Shown here: in pieces, positions 14,819 to 43,419 of the stretch
How positions within the stretch are numbered: the stretch's first letter is position 1
Layout of the letters: each line of letters opens with the position of its first letter
Virus record (IMG/VR): IMGVR_UViG_3300037071_004345
Span: 1 to 44,579 of that record
Source of the DNA: a virus
DNA length: 44,579 nucleotides
Strand: one strand, 5' to 3'
The notes under the pieces: model-generated
Seen by the model: only the letters and a program-made list of their open reading frames with translations
What the model was told of the DNA's origin: nothing
Databases searched by the model: none
Translations under genes and position numbers: made by a program

Positions 14819-14847
14819 ACGTATGTCACATTCACGGGGTATGTCAA
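14819..14847 (-). promoter_or_regulatory. Candidate leftward promoter for the repressor operon
   Basis: Read leftward, TTGACA (14847-14842) is followed after 16-18 bases by a weak -10 (CATACG/TACGTT region, 14825-14818). The -35 lies inside the GTATGTC half-site at 14839-14845 and the -10 overlaps another GTATGTC at 14821-14827, so a protein bound to these sites would block the promoter. Autoregulation of the XRE repressor is the simple reading. Confidence 0.45.
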
Positions 14848-14861
14848 GCGTCCCGACATAC
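14839..14861. promoter_or_regulatory. Operator: GTATGTC-N9-GACATAC inverted repeat
   Basis: A perfect 7-base inverted repeat (14839-14845 and 14855-14861) with a 9-base spacer, in the gap between the divergent repressor and early genes. Half-site copies flank it at 14821-14827 and 14958-14964, with a near copy (GACATAT) at 14933-14939. Dyad size and place fit an HTH-dimer operator. Confidence 0.6.
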
Positions 14862-14930
14862 GTGAGCCCTATATTTCCGACAGATGGTTTACGGATAGCG
14901 CGCGATGCGCTACCCTAATCGCGTTACGGG

Positions 14931-14958
14931 TTGACATATGGCTCCTGCCGTGTGTAAG
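14931..14958 (+). promoter_or_regulatory. Candidate early rightward promoter
   Basis: TTGACA (14931-14936) and TGTAAG (14953-14958) with a 16-base spacer. A GACATAT half-site covers the -35, and GACATAC (14958-14964) covers the likely start region. It would drive 15005 onward. The ribosome site GGAGG lies at about 14988-14992. Confidence 0.5.
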
Positions 14959-15004
14959 ACATACATAGTGAGTCGTCAGACAGACACGGAGGCTTTCCCC
15001 TCAG

Positions 15005-18155: not shown

Positions 18156-18791
18156 ATGGCGAAGAACAGCATGTTCCGCACCGACCGGTTCAAGGGGCCG
18201 CTCATGCGCATCAGCTACGCATGGCAGCTTTTCAAGCCGCGCGAGGCGGGCGAGTTCGGCCGCGGCGGCTACGGCTGCACCCTCATCATGCCGAAGTCCG
18301 GCGACTGGTCGGCCATCCAGGGCGCCATCAAGGCGTGCGTCGCAGGACAGTGGGGCGACCGCGGCGCTGAGAAGTGGAAGGCGGGGCTCATCAAGAACCC
18401 CATCCTCGACGGTGCCGGCAAGGAGGCCCGCAGCAAGGAGAGCGGCGAGCTTCACCCCGGCATGGGTGAAGACGTGCGGTTCATCCGCGTCGGCTCCGGC
18501 CTCGATCGTAAGCCGCAGGTCTACGACCAGAACGTCGTGCTCCTCGCCGACTCCGACGACTGCCCGAGCGGCTCGTGGGGCTACCCGGTGCTCAACGCCT
18601 ACACCTGGCACAACGACCAGAACGGCGACGGCGTGAGCTTCGGGATCGAGATGTTCCAACTCGTGAAGAAGGCCGAGGGTGGCGACGTGCTCGGTGGCAG
18701 CGGGAAGGCCAACCCGAGCGCCTTCTTCGAGGCCGTGGCTGGCGCGGGCGACGGCGAGAAGCCCGAGTCTGCCGGCGACTTCTTCGGCTAG
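18156..18791 (+). CDS. DUF2815 single-stranded DNA-binding protein (gp2.5-like)
   Basis: 211 residues, four bases after the nuclease. The opening (FKGPLMRISYAWQLFKPREA), a central DGAGKEARSKESGELHPGMG region and VYDQNVVLLADSDDCPSGSWG match the DUF2815 OB-fold family related to T7 gp2.5. It coats single-stranded DNA in replication and recombination. The C-terminal 40 residues are Gly-rich and acidic, ending AGDFFG; gp2.5-like proteins use an acidic, Phe-ended tail to contact polymerase and helicase. It therefore gives the reference for the shared tail in this genome. Confidence 0.85.
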   Translation: MAKNSMFRTDRFKGPLMRISYAWQLFKPREAGEFGRGGYGCTLIMPKSGDWSAIQGAIKACVAGQWGDRGAEKWKAGLIKNPILDGAGKEARSKESGELHPGMGEDVRFIRVGSGLDRKPQVYDQNVVLLADSDDCPSGSWGYPVLNAYTWHNDQNGDGVSFGIEMFQLVKKAEGGDVLGGSGKANPSAFFEAVAGAGDGEKPESAGDFFG

Positions 18792-29069: not shown

Positions 29070-29537
29070 TCAGCTCCTCCTCTTACATGCGCGCGCGGCG
29101 CCCCGGATCTTGTCCCACAGTATGCGCGGACCTGGGCGCCCGCTACGGGCCATCCATCGCGCCGTAAGGGTATGGGCTTGCAGCTCGCGGGCGCCGGTGC
29201 ATCCGGGTGCCTGCAGCCAATGGGCAAGCTCATGCACCAGGACGGCTTGCGCTTGGTCGGGCGGGAGCCACGATGCGAGATAGACCACCCCATTAGCGTA
29301 GGCGCCATAGCGGGCGCCGGGATGATAGGCGCCAGGATCACTCACAAGGCGGACCTGTGGCAGCTCGGCGCCCCGAGCTGCCCGGAGTGCGGAGTTTGCC
29401 TCGAGCCATGCCACGGCGGCGCCAGCCGCGCCAGGGGCCAGCGTAGGCGCCGCCGCATGCGAGGCCGGCGCAAAGGCTTGCGCCACCGTAGCGAGTGCTA
29501 CGGCCGCAAGGCAGGTGCGCAGAATGTCTCTCCTCAT
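29070..29537 (-). CDS. Secreted zinc metallopeptidase-like protein
   Basis: 155 residues from ATG 29537; longer in-frame reading is shadow of the upstream gene. Signal peptide about 1-28 (RTCLAAVALATVAQAFAPAS then HA|A). Zinc motif VHELAHWLQ (His102, Glu103, His106) and a possible third ligand in ARELQAHTL (Glu118). YANGVVYLASW gives the edge strand typical of gluzincins. It should act in the periplasm. The lysis genes are elsewhere, so it may be a lysogenic-conversion or envelope-modifying factor. The family is not named with certainty. Confidence 0.7.
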   Translation of the reverse strand: MRRDILRTCLAAVALATVAQAFAPASHAAAPTLAPGAAGAAVAWLEANSALRAARGAELPQVRLVSDPGAYHPGARYGAYANGVVYLASWLPPDQAQAVLVHELAHWLQAPGCTGARELQAHTLTARWMARSGRPGPRILWDKIRGAARACKRRS

Positions 29538-29538
29538 C

Positions 29539-29742
29539 TCAGACAATCGTCCGAGAAGGAAGCTTTTCCGCCCAGCCGAAAGCGGCGCGCCTCGCCTTAA
29601 CCTCGGACTCGAACGGGCCATGCACGGCCGAGTCGAGCTTCCTGACGCGAACGTACCAGCCGCGCGCCAGGATCCCGCCGTGGCCATCGGCGCGGATAGA
29701 TTTGCCGCGCGTGCCGCTCGCATAGAAAACCGTGGGTGCCAT
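29539..29742 (-). CDS. Small AP2/integrase-N-like DNA-binding-fold candidate
   Basis: 67 residues from ATG 29742 with CAGGAG upstream. Strand-like ILARGWYVRVRKLDSAVHGP then a helix EVKARRAAFGWAEKL resembles a three-strand/helix unit like AP2 or arm-binding domains, but the match is only by pattern. First gene after a near-consensus leftward promoter and followed by the metallopeptidase with one spare base. Confidence 0.5.
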   Translation of the reverse strand: MAPTVFYASGTRGKSIRADGHGGILARGWYVRVRKLDSAVHGPFESEVKARRAAFGWAEKLPSRTIV

Positions 29743-33379: not shown

Positions 33380-33895
33380 TTGGCTACGCATACCAAGAGC
33401 GCAGACACAAGCCCGAAGCGTAAGACGCTTGTCTCGGCGCTTGCGCTGGTAGGCGATCCGCACGCGGCGGCGCGGCTGGCGGATTGGCGAGGGTATGGCG
33501 TTAATGATGCGGCATTCGTCGCGAAAGATCCGAGGGTTATCAAACAGGTAGAAGCAATCCGATTCCGGCGTATGTCAGAGGAGATCGTTCCGCTTGCGTT
33601 GGGCGTGATTGTCGAGACGCTTCGGGGTGCACCAGGTCGGGCTCGCGACGATATGGCTCGTTGGGCGGTCAAAGAGTGGAAAGACGAGCACGGGAGCGTC
33701 GCAGGGGGCGTCGTCGACGGTGATCTCGACCTCAGCAACGCCAGCCAAGGGCAGCTCGCGCGCATGATTCAGGAGCTGGAGGTACAACAGGCCGCGCTCG
33801 AAACGATTGCTGCAGGCAAGGCGAAGGACGTCACACCATCAACAGATGTGATAGATGCTGGCGATCATATCACAGAGATTGATCCATTCAGCTGA
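33380..33895 (+). CDS. Probable terminase small subunit
   Basis: 171 residues from a TTG start (no in-frame ATG or GTG upstream before a stop). The N-terminal part, SALALVGDPHAAARLADWRG followed by AAFVAKDPRVIKQVEAIRFR, has the helix-turn-helix-like arrangement and the 'P-x-V-x-x-x-x-E' helix of phage small terminases, followed by an oligomerisation helix (QLARMIQELEVQQAALETIA) and an acidic tail ending EIDPFS. It would select the packaging site; the repeat-rich non-coding DNA immediately downstream could hold that site. The large subunit is not in this window. Confidence 0.6.
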   Translation: MATHTKSADTSPKRKTLVSALALVGDPHAAARLADWRGYGVNDAAFVAKDPRVIKQVEAIRFRRMSEEIVPLALGVIVETLRGAPGRARDDMARWAVKEWKDEHGSVAGGVVDGDLDLSNASQGQLARMIQELEVQQAALETIAAGKAKDVTPSTDVIDAGDHITEIDPFS

Positions 33896-33976: not shown

Positions 33977-34166
33977 AAGCCTCGGGGCGCATCGAGCCGC
34001 AGCTCTGCCTCGACGTCGACCTCGGCGCGGGCGCCTCGGCGGCCGGGCGGCCCCCCGGGCCACGGCCCACAATTGCACCAAAAGCCGGCGCTGGACGCCC
34101 ATACAAAAATGCGCCCCACCGTACCTTTCTGACATACAGTAACGTCGGCTACGGACTTCTCTCCCT

Positions 34167-34333
34167 CCTTCGTACCTTCGTATCGTAGGCTGCGTAGGGT
34201 ACGATCTTACCCTACGAAAGGGTACGAAACCCCCCTTCCGAGCGTCGTCAACCTTCGTACCTTCTTCGTAGGAAACGCAGTGCTAGGAACCCCCCCCCTT
34301 AAGGGGGGTCCGCATCCTACGAAAGGTACGAAG
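34167..34333. repeat. Iteron-like array: eight TACGAA/TTCGTA in four bipartite units
   Basis: Units at 34167-34189 (reverse), 34211-34228 (forward), 34252-34272 (reverse) and 34316-34333 (forward), each of the form CCTACGA-n-GGTACGAA. TACGAA copies: 34169, 34177, 34254, 34265 (as TTCGTA) and 34213, 34223, 34318, 34327. A 9-base dyad CGTAGGGTA-N6-TACCCTACG sits at 34193-34216. The alternating orientation and non-coding place suggest a replication origin or packaging site bound by a multimeric protein. Confidence 0.75.
34293..34308. repeat. 16-base palindrome C6-TTAA-G6
   Basis: A perfect palindrome CCCCCCTTAAGGGGGG between the third and fourth bipartite repeats, preceded by three more C. It stands in otherwise mixed sequence and could be a cleavage, nicking or protein-binding point. 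Confidence 0.7.
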
Positions 34334-34379: not shown

Positions 34380-34415
34380 GTATGTCTGGCGGACGCCGTC
34401 ACATGGGAGACATAC
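34380..34415. promoter_or_regulatory. GTATGTC/GACATAC pair over the zinc-finger gene start
   Basis: GTATGTC (34380-34386) and GACATAC (34409-34415) are inverted, 22 bases apart. The second lies between the ribosome site GGGAG (34405-34409) and ATG 34418. A further GACATAC lies at 34132-34138. A bound regulator, or an RNA hairpin formed by the pair, would block expression of the gene. Confidence 0.5.
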
Positions 34416-34417
34416 GA

Positions 34418-34969
34418 ATGGCCAAGGAATCGCCGGAAACCCCTTGCGTGTATTGCCACGCCCCCGGGCGGATATACGCCGTGAAGGAGGGCTACGTGGT
34501 CCCAGGCACCGAGCACCTCGCAAAGCCGACCGCACTCTGCGCTCGCTGCTACCATCCACACCAGCAGGAGCTTTTCTGGCACGCCCATCCCCGAGGCCGG
34601 GATTTCGCGAAGAAGGAGATCGAGGATCTCGCCGCCGAGGTCGCCGAGCGGAAGCAGGCGCAGCGCGAGGCCGCAAGGCCCAAGCCCGCTTCGTCGACTC
34701 CCGAGCCCCAGCTCATCGAGGCCGCGGTCCAGCGGCTCATGGGGGAGGCCCAGCGGCTCGCGGACCCGCATCCGAAGCCCCGGAGCCCCGCCTGGATCGG
34801 CCGAGACCTCGAGGTCGAGGGCTGGGACCGCAAGCTGCTCGTCGCGGCGCTGGCTCAGGCCGTCGAGGACGGCGACCTCGTGCTCGATGAGCAATTCGAC
34901 GCTTCGCGGAACATGAAACGGGTCGTCCGGCCCGCCCCGACCGGCGTTGCGGTCGATCTTTTCGCGTAG
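34418..34969 (+). CDS. Zinc-finger protein with DLFA tail, candidate repeat-binding protein
   Basis: 183 residues from ATG 34418 (GGGAG eight bases upstream); in-frame ATGs at 34403 and 34382 are alternatives, the latter with AGGAG only three bases away. CVYCHAPGR and CARCYHPH form a zinc site at 10-45, then a charged helix (EIEDLAAEVAERKQAQREAA), and a C-terminal winged-helix-like part (WDRKLLVAALAQAVEDGDLV, then LDEQFDASRNMKRVV), ending VAVDLFA. It follows directly after the iteron-like array, so it could be an origin- or packaging-site-binding protein. Family not recognised. Confidence 0.6.
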   Translation: MAKESPETPCVYCHAPGRIYAVKEGYVVPGTEHLAKPTALCARCYHPHQQELFWHAHPRGRDFAKKEIEDLAAEVAERKQAQREAARPKPASSTPEPQLIEAAVQRLMGEAQRLADPHPKPRSPAWIGRDLEVEGWDRKLLVAALAQAVEDGDLVLDEQFDASRNMKRVVRPAPTGVAVDLFA

Positions 34970-34970
34970 G

Positions 34971-35013
34971 TTGACGCCCGTGGCGGTTGTCGGATATGAT
35001 GGCCGACAACCGC
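34971..35013 (+). promoter_or_regulatory. Late promoter with 11-base inverted repeat over the -10
   Basis: TTGACG (34971-34976), 18-base spacer, TATGAT (34995-35000). A perfect 11-base inverted repeat, GCGGTTGTCGG (34983-34993) with its complement at 35003-35013, brackets the -10 box in its 9-base spacer. This is the form of an operator placed to block a promoter. It precedes the endolysin and late tail genes. Confidence 0.65.
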
Positions 35014-42100: not shown

Positions 42101-43419
42101 ACGACAGCGCGAACGCCTGGCGCTACACCTGGGGCGGAGGTCGTGGCCCCACCATCTACCCTCACCCGAGCGATTTTAATCACGTCTTCGGGATGGTCTT
42201 CATCAGCGGCGCGGTGTCGCACGACGGGGGCGCCAACTTCATCGGGCGCGACTGCTCCTACTTCGACCACGCGCACACGAAGGGCTGGTCCTACGACCGG
42301 AACGACTTCCGCAAGCTTTTCGCCATGCTCCAAGACAGCGGCTCCTGGTCTCAGAACGCGACGAAGTGGTACGAGGAGCTTGGCCTGAAGCACGACAAAG
42401 CCTGCACGAATCAAGCCGGCACCAACGGGGATCCGTTCGCTTTCGCCACGACAACCGCCGCGCTGACTGCATCCAACACCGCCCCCCGGCGGACGCAGGG
42501 CAGAGGGGCGTGCTCGCTGCACGGTTCCGCCATGACGCTGTTCGCGCTGTCGGCCGACAAGCCCAACAACAAGTGCATCCCCGTCATCCGGGCCTCCAAC
42601 GGTAGTTGGGTCGCGAGAACCGACGTGGGCATATCGTCGTGCGCCAGGTTCTTCCACCACCCCACCATCTCCACGACTATCGTCCTCGGCAGTTGGTTCA
42701 TCACCGGATGGGGGACTACGCCCGCCAGTGTCAACTTCACCAACTACAGCGGCCGGGAGGTCGTCGGATATTCGCTGGTCGGCGGGGCGCCCCGCTGGTA
42801 CTTCGGAACCTCGGGCACGTCGGGAAGCTCGATCTACCGCTCGACGAACGCCAACGGCTCCGGTGGCACGCTCTGGAAGACGCTCGCCAGCTCCGCCCTT
42901 CACACGGCGGTTGCCCCGGACATCCACAACGACGGCACCGTCTTCGTCGCTCGCATAAGCCAGAACGGCAAAGTCGAGCGGCACACGGCGAGCACCAGCA
43001 CGGTGATCTTCGACGCGAAGGTCGCGATCGACGCTGTATTCGACCAGTACGGCCTCCCCAAGACCACGATGCCTGACGTCGAGGTATCCTACCTCGTCAC
43101 CGATCCGAACATGCCGGGGCTCCTGTACGTCGTGCTCCACGGGGCGGGGATGCCGGTCATCTTCATGTCCCTGAATGCCAACGACGCGAATCCGACTTTC
43201 ACGAACGAGACCAGGAACCTCCCGCACACCTACTACTGGTTGCCCAGCTTGCACCCGGTCACGGGCGAGCTGTTCATGGACAGCAGCATGGGCGAGTTCG
43301 TCCTGCCGGCCCCGGCGGGGTATCCCGCACTGACAAACTTGAACTACTTCACGCAGGAGATGGACGCCTTCTACGGCAGAGCCGATGTACCCGACCCGCC
43401 AGTCCTGCCGGGGGCGTAG
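39112..43419 (+). CDS. Large receptor-binding protein/tailspike with BNR (Asp-box) repeats
   Basis: 1435 residues from GTG 39112 with GGAGG upstream; a longer in-frame opening is shadow of two genes before it. The N-terminal 450 residues have Ig/cadherin-like beta domains (SWTFTTGSNPGELDVTITGI, FTVTLTAENSAGTAEETFQL). A TTTNGSNNIVVAKTAHGMGV segment follows. From about 660 there is a beta-propeller region with Asp-box motifs SPDGGRTI, SIDEGRTW, SSNGGTSF, STNGGSSW and SHDGGANF, as in sialidase/xyloglucanase-like propellers. It probably binds or cleaves surface polysaccharide; catalytic residues are not identified. Confidence 0.75.
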   Translation: MATVSRGGSIVRKAGTVRRAHNPAAPNTPNFGTVSAQHVDGIWYVRVSRIPVAPEDAIEQARLVVYRVVSGVEAPAYKTPIVTLQPDEFVECGPGTVVSDAGTLIVALEAVFNIPGRPVRIRDVTIDGEDPPIETPASVSWTFTTGSNPGELDVTITGITNGSGDNGVPTHVDISLNGGDREPLGDGLLAVETNTITTTPGALTAAVLQISNAFQDFPPSEIKTALAGADDPPVTTKPVWHFPQPQSFTEGDAFSVDFHDYCDGADSFEVVTNLTGGISSGTDDEQLDVASLVPGTTDLTVEATNAQGTSIGIWTITVEPAVLAPSVVRPVADQALVNGDTLRINLDGPNGVFSGTEPMTFTIDPDDDPDFALGAGGNANTFGNANSLVDARSPFTVTLTAENSAGTAEETFQLGVSIVRDDAPAWGTDVTMGASQATHTDWRTGTVSWPSAPGQRLWTRSVPDANGSVPPDQVEQFESLGSNLYRMQMTDPLERGDPDVQTAVVSLGANPVTTTNGSNNIVVAKTAHGMGVGRRVTLADLTAGNGLTAAQMNGSRQIIAVAANTFTVQAGGNATGSGATGGSSGSYAANRADYSVMAPGDPANIRVAYDDAGVISHWSLPMAVPQVVSLGARYWRFNTRRPQEAYEATPPWPAGPGNQYQHVVAWNERSVRDPSKKFYMFTGQDENGVSFSPDGGRTISPIVGLGLTGLSITGLYFCSDDLTNGLLLATTGDWNGLAKTGLYGSIDEGRTWKRIRLNRTNGADAFASNKTIFPRMTMNVIDRRPQNASGTLTDAQRPIYVVAQPKDGSSSLIGCYLFKWDGGDVFDTADWTQVYEWPVAEVRGDNPTVNNAGEVGMRGVRVATNGDVIVDGRQGVWYSSNGGTSFTKKFSNACVRGLAVDMSAAGAPAVAIAVSNKAGANDPVVLKTANISTTGFTSPGNTGLPTNATAVGFNGAKSNFNRQYLVYKTGSSYAARLSTNGGSSWQAINVEEPPGYDDSANAWRYTWGGGRGPTIYPHPSDFNHVFGMVFISGAVSHDGGANFIGRDCSYFDHAHTKGWSYDRNDFRKLFAMLQDSGSWSQNATKWYEELGLKHDKACTNQAGTNGDPFAFATTTAALTASNTAPRRTQGRGACSLHGSAMTLFALSADKPNNKCIPVIRASNGSWVARTDVGISSCARFFHHPTISTTIVLGSWFITGWGTTPASVNFTNYSGREVVGYSLVGGAPRWYFGTSGTSGSSIYRSTNANGSGGTLWKTLASSALHTAVAPDIHNDGTVFVARISQNGKVERHTASTSTVIFDAKVAIDAVFDQYGLPKTTMPDVEVSYLVTDPNMPGLLYVVLHGAGMPVIFMSLNANDANPTFTNETRNLPHTYYWLPSLHPVTGELFMDSSMGEFVLPAPAGYPALTNLNYFTQEMDAFYGRADVPDPPVLPGA

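Follow-up and report, generated by a model that had tools for sequence, protein, structure and literature searches.

The helicase initiators of SaPIs and of phage P4 (Rep and alpha, respectively) recognize iterons through a C-terminal domain, which is a winged helix in the P4 protein. The C-terminal domain of SaPI Rep binds iterons located directly downstream of the Rep gene (PMC7581432). The primase-helicase of the archaeal plasmid pRN1 likewise ends in a winged helix, and the origin of this plasmid, which is a stem-loop and carries no iterons, resides downstream of the primase-helicase gene and still works when displaced (PMC4234260). A similar layout is evident in members of a group of phages that includes Rhizobium phage RHph_N65, Microcystis phage Mae-Yong1326-1 and several IMG/VR genomes, and given the SaPI/P4 and pRN1 precedents, the pairing of helicase gene and iteron array in these phages is of a known kind.

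We analysed a relative of these phages represented by an IMG/VR virus record of 44,579 bp, the full length of which is called the window. Genes in the relatives follow the order primase-helicase, minus-strand cluster, small terminase (TerS), non-coding gap, late genes, TerL, portal and head, and the window maintains this order up to its limit. Positions 1-22005 match a second record (IMGVR_UViG_3300037119_002998) with 99.86% identity across 22 kb, and because that contig adds ~7.5 kb of upstream sequence with TerL and portal genes that are absent from the window, the latter is incomplete. An open reading frame of the minus-strand cluster (29070-29540, minus strand) carries a HELAHW motif and, as read by eye, is like a small zinc metallopeptidase.

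An array of TACGAA repeats behind the small terminase gene

The only strong repeat cluster revealed by a k-mer scan of the window is formed by the hexamer TACGAA between positions 34167 and 34333. This hexamer occurs 15 times in the window, where 7.1 +/- 2.6 copies are expected, and it is the most tightly clustered of all 6-mers, with a log10 P of -18.2 versus -8.2 for the best of 60 dinucleotide shuffles. Eight copies (34169-, 34177-, 34213+, 34223+, 34254-, 34265-, 34318+ and 34327+) are organized into four two-part units, exactly as described in a sequence-only reading of this DNA that preceded our analysis. In the order reverse-forward-reverse-forward, the units read 5′ to 3′ CGATACGAAGGTACGAAGGA, CCCTACGAAAGGGTACGAAACC, CCTACGAAGAAGGTACGAAGG and CCTACGAAAGGTACGAAG, such that units 1 and 2 constitute one inverted pair and units 3 and 4 another. 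A ninth copy resides past the array at 34413+. The dyad reported in that reading is also present, with perfect arms of 8 bp rather than 9 (Table 1).

The 167-base interval carries no likely gene, again in agreement with the earlier description, and the next gene begins at 34382 or 34418. Its GC content is 56%, compared with 67% for the window, and as single-stranded DNA it folds with a z-score of -6.6, indicating strong foldback potential. The TACGAA array is thus confirmed as a real feature, in which short repeats accumulate beyond chance in non-coding DNA as they do in iteron-type origins. The open reading frame upstream, previously described as the probable small terminase gene, is recognized by a profile of TerS proteins from the relatives.

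No further copy of the array was found in the record, no match to it in Rfam, and no sigma-70-like promoter near it. GC skew, which the sequence-only reading had proposed as a check, was uninformative, since its cumulative curve has no minimum at the array. Hexamer-pair scans of IMG/VR, which are unspecific, uncovered no related array; a comparable cluster in one genome (L041) was rejected as an unrelated repeat set inside a gene.

Table 1. Features of the window that are relevant to the TACGAA array
Feature	Position	Strand	Remarks
Primase-helicase without C-terminal winged helix	27016..28713	+	ORF from 26896
Convergent small ORF, 62 aa	28715..28903	-	Abuts helicase stop, at the place of the relatives' iteron array (and lost domain)
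TerS (small terminase)	33380..33895	+	HMM from relatives' TerS, window left out, E = 1.5e-6
Conserved packaging-type element	34049..34110	+	GGCCCCCCGGG box, 54-bp spacing, ACAAAAAT
GACATA	34131..34136	+	Resembles sites before repressor gene (14822-14963)
Iteron unit 1	34168..34182	-	TACGAAGGTACGAAG
One-mismatch (degenerate) copies between units 1 and 2	34182..34205		TACGAT 34182- and 34200+, TACGCA 34191-
Iteron unit 2	34211..34229	+	CCTACGAAAGGGTACGAAA
Iteron unit 3	34252..34272	-	CCTACGAAGAAGGTACGAAGG; ~18-bp stem with unit 4
C/G palindrome (dyad)	34293-34308		CCCCCCTTAAGGGGGG; between units 3 and 4; perfect 8-bp arms
Iteron unit 4	34316..34333	+	CCTACGAAAGGTACGAAG
Orphan zinc-finger protein, candidate initiator	34418..34969	+	Ends VDLFA; alternative start 34382

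Primase-helicases, iteron arrays and the zinc-finger protein

Among 87 primase-helicases compared, the window protein is the only one that lacks the C-terminal winged-helix domain, as evident by the fact that all 86 related proteins run 79-123 amino acids past its C-terminus. The predicted structure of this extension is a winged helix (pLDDT 85), and Foldseek searches with the model mostly returned MarR-like and DnaD winged helices among PDB structures, all as weak matches (E > 0.06). An HMM built from 75 such domains did not match any frame of the window significantly, and therefore the loss is not simply due to a frameshift. A misassembly at the 3′ end of the helicase gene is possible, because this arrangement is known from one genome only.

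The relatives place their repeats differently from the window. At least six copies of a short iteron are located just behind the primase-helicase gene in 19 of 20 distinct relatives whose sequence extends to TerS, and the remaining genome (L203) carries a 10-copy array 0.9 kb further on, behind inserted genes. When the best 6-mer is counted, with the helicase-side count covering 600 bp behind the gene, the relatives other than L203 exhibit 6-13 copies behind the helicase versus 3-6 behind TerS across the 20, and the window exhibits the reverse, with 3 and 9 copies, respectively. An array comparable to that of TACGAA was found behind TerS in none of the 20. The k-mer cluster scan likewise detected arrays just behind the primase-helicase that are strong in RHN65, G005 and G008 but weaker in G004. 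Loci retrieved via the helicase conform to this pattern. Of 86 helicase loci, 35 carry at least five exact copies of a 7-mer within 500 bp downstream, compared with 20 of 430 random control windows. Many of the more distant loci have no array by this criterion, and we therefore confine the rule to the nearer relatives rather than extend it to the entire family.

In their build, the arrays of the related phages (RHph_N65, G004, L172-L174 and others) resemble that of the window, since each is a dominant short-repeat array with 6-13 copies in 100-300 bp and similar C/G hairpins are found in or after the repeats. In G004, whose helicase is 52% identical to that of the window, the array even has a CGAA unit of two parts (GCCGAAACGCCGAAAC) that occurs in either orientation. 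Unlike these arrays, which reside behind the gene for a winged-helix primase-helicase and mostly include IHF-like boxes, the window array is not directly downstream of such a gene and no IHF-like box was found in it, nor does an exact IHF consensus occur anywhere in the window. A weight matrix derived from the relatives' iterons does not pick out the TACGAA array. A recurring box within the relatives' arrays, TAAGTCATTGAAATCATTG, is like the IHF consensus in its reverse complement (L172 at 6074 and 6143, L173 at 12112 and 12180, RHN65 (L124) at 34983 and 35051).

The gene beside the array is not that of the primase-helicase, but encodes an orphan zinc-finger protein. Homology searches with this protein found nothing useful beyond two marginal matches of 32-35%, and a search for relatives of a neighbouring 315-amino-acid protein also gave nothing useful. 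A low-confidence structure model of the zinc-finger protein has a helix-helix-beta-beta C-terminus. By eye, the C-terminus of this protein resembles the C-terminal domain of the helicases, but neither hhalign nor HMM searches bore this out. The proposal from the sequence-only reading that this protein serves as the initiator is possible, although it could not be connected to the lost winged helix by profile searches and sequence tests give no support.

That reading had also noted the DLFA tail of the zinc-finger protein. We have dropped the idea that this tail marks an initiator because about 10 proteins per genome, including TerS, carry such a tail. The shared C-terminal sequence (D/E/G-I/V/L/P-F-x) occurs in 10 of 58 called window proteins, compared with a background of ~1.6%. 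The tail-bearing proteins end at 18791, 19385, 20728, 20958, 21521, 23871, 24615, 28713, 33895 and 34969 and nearly all belong to DNA metabolism (SSB, methyltransferases, helicase, TerS, zinc finger). This enrichment extends to G004, RHN65, G005 and G008 but not to Mae-Yong1326-1. Possibly, the tail is a docking peptide for a replication hub.

A packaging-type element and operator-like sites in the same gap

A conserved element in the gap behind TerS consists of a GGCCCCC(C)GG box followed 51-54 bp later by a motif like ACAAAAAT (at 34049 and 34103 in the window). Both motifs are present in the window, G004, RHN65, G008 and L195, and by eye in Mae-Yong1326-1; the two-part pattern is not matched in full in every relative. 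For Mae-Yong1326-1, a fixed terminus and a DTR of 366 bp are reported on the basis of PhageTerm (PMC9503304), and this DTR extends from within a TerS-like open reading frame to a point between the two motifs of the element. By analogy with this terminus, the packaged DNA end of the window is predicted to be near 34080. The element is located ~60-120 bp upstream of the TACGAA array and is found in relatives that have no such array in the gap. Conservation behind TerS and coincidence with a mapped terminus are properties of the element and not of the array, and judging from these sequences the putative packaging site and the array are separate elements within one gap.

IHF-type sites similar to TAAGTCATTGAAATCATTG are located directly behind TerS in L172, L193, L194, L196, G004 and RHN65. 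The TerS gaps of relatives also hold GGACAnnnTGTCC palindromes (G004 42575-42720, G008 1959 and 25288, several in G005, L174 11960 and 12328), which in G008 additionally precede the repressor gene and probably serve as operators. In the window, GACATA/TATGTC sites seem to take their place and are found at 14822-14963 and, in its own TerS gap, at 34131, 34381 (TATGTC) and 34409 (GACATA). We considered that TACGAA might substitute for the GGACA repeats of relatives as TerS sites, and dropped this idea because GGACA/TGTCC sites also precede the repressor gene.

Possible functions of the array

The sequence-only reading had left open whether the array is an origin or a packaging site. The helicase-side arrays of the relatives favor the former, whereas the separate element in the same gap speaks against the latter. 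We estimate a probability of roughly 60% that the array is an iteron-type replication origin that has been relocated from an ancestral place behind the helicase gene. This is the simplest reading because both the domain and the array are absent from their usual place while one array is present elsewhere. The ancestral layout would have been a primase-helicase with a C-terminal winged helix followed directly by an iteron array and hairpin. In the lineage of the window, the helicase gene would have lost its 3′ end together with the array that followed it, and an array of similar build would have come to reside between TerS and the late genes. An initiator, which could be the adjacent zinc-finger protein or another, would bind the two-part TACGAA units, assist in melting or extruding the inverted units that surround the CCCCCCTTAAGGGGGG dyad, and recruit the shortened primase-helicase. 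Unlike SaPI Rep and P4 alpha, this helicase carries no recognition domain and the iterons are 5.4 kb away. The position unlike that in every relative examined, the results with IHF-like boxes, weight matrix and GC skew, the failure to connect the zinc-finger protein to the lost domain by sequence, and the single genome all count against a relocated origin.

The main rival, which we regard as unlikely, is that TerS binds the TACGAA units as part of a cosB- or pac-like packaging site that is cut just upstream, near 34080. The array does lie directly behind TerS, several relatives have an IHF-like site there, and the mapped end of Mae-Yong1326-1 falls inside the element homologous to 34049-34110. 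Moreover, ~90 bp separate the predicted cut from the start of the array on its right, a distance comparable to that of lambda cosB, and both lambda cosB and P1 pac have repeats near the packaging cut and terminase genes. Unlike in those systems, the repeats of the window are outside the element that is conserved behind TerS in the phage group. No comparable array of repeats occupies the gap in relatives that share this element and have a homologous TerS, and the GGACAnnnTGTCC gap sites of relatives match sites before the repressor gene and look regulatory.

Regulation of the downstream genes is less probable still. An operator or promoter region, for example for autoregulation by the zinc-finger protein, would suit the location of the array in the 522-bp gap before the zinc-finger, endolysin and tail operon, and inverted two-part units would suit a dimeric regulator. 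However, the gap already holds the GACATA/TATGTC repressor-type sites, nothing comparable to the array is present here in the relatives, and the promoter search near the array was negative. The foldback potential of the region might instead reflect another type of cis element, such as a partition centromere, a structured RNA or a mobile palindromic repeat. We consider this very improbable, given the single copy in the record, the negative Rfam search, and the fact that no ParA or ParB was seen among the genes examined.

A relocated origin could also have come with its own initiator, although we hold this idea tentatively and judge it to be on the unlikely side. In such a split arrangement, the winged helix lost from the helicase would have been replaced in trans by the orphan zinc-finger/winged-helix-like protein, which was carried with the new iteron origin immediately beside the packaging site. 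If true, the starts of replication and packaging would be combined in one shared 300-bp control region.

The comparison provides a map that can be tested in a group of phages that has received little study, with iterons located behind the primase-helicase gene and an element of packaging type behind TerS. Nature offers an exception to this map in the window, since a putative origin-binding domain and an array are jointly absent from the usual place and an array is present elsewhere. It therefore represents a case for the study of initiator and origin exchange in phages.
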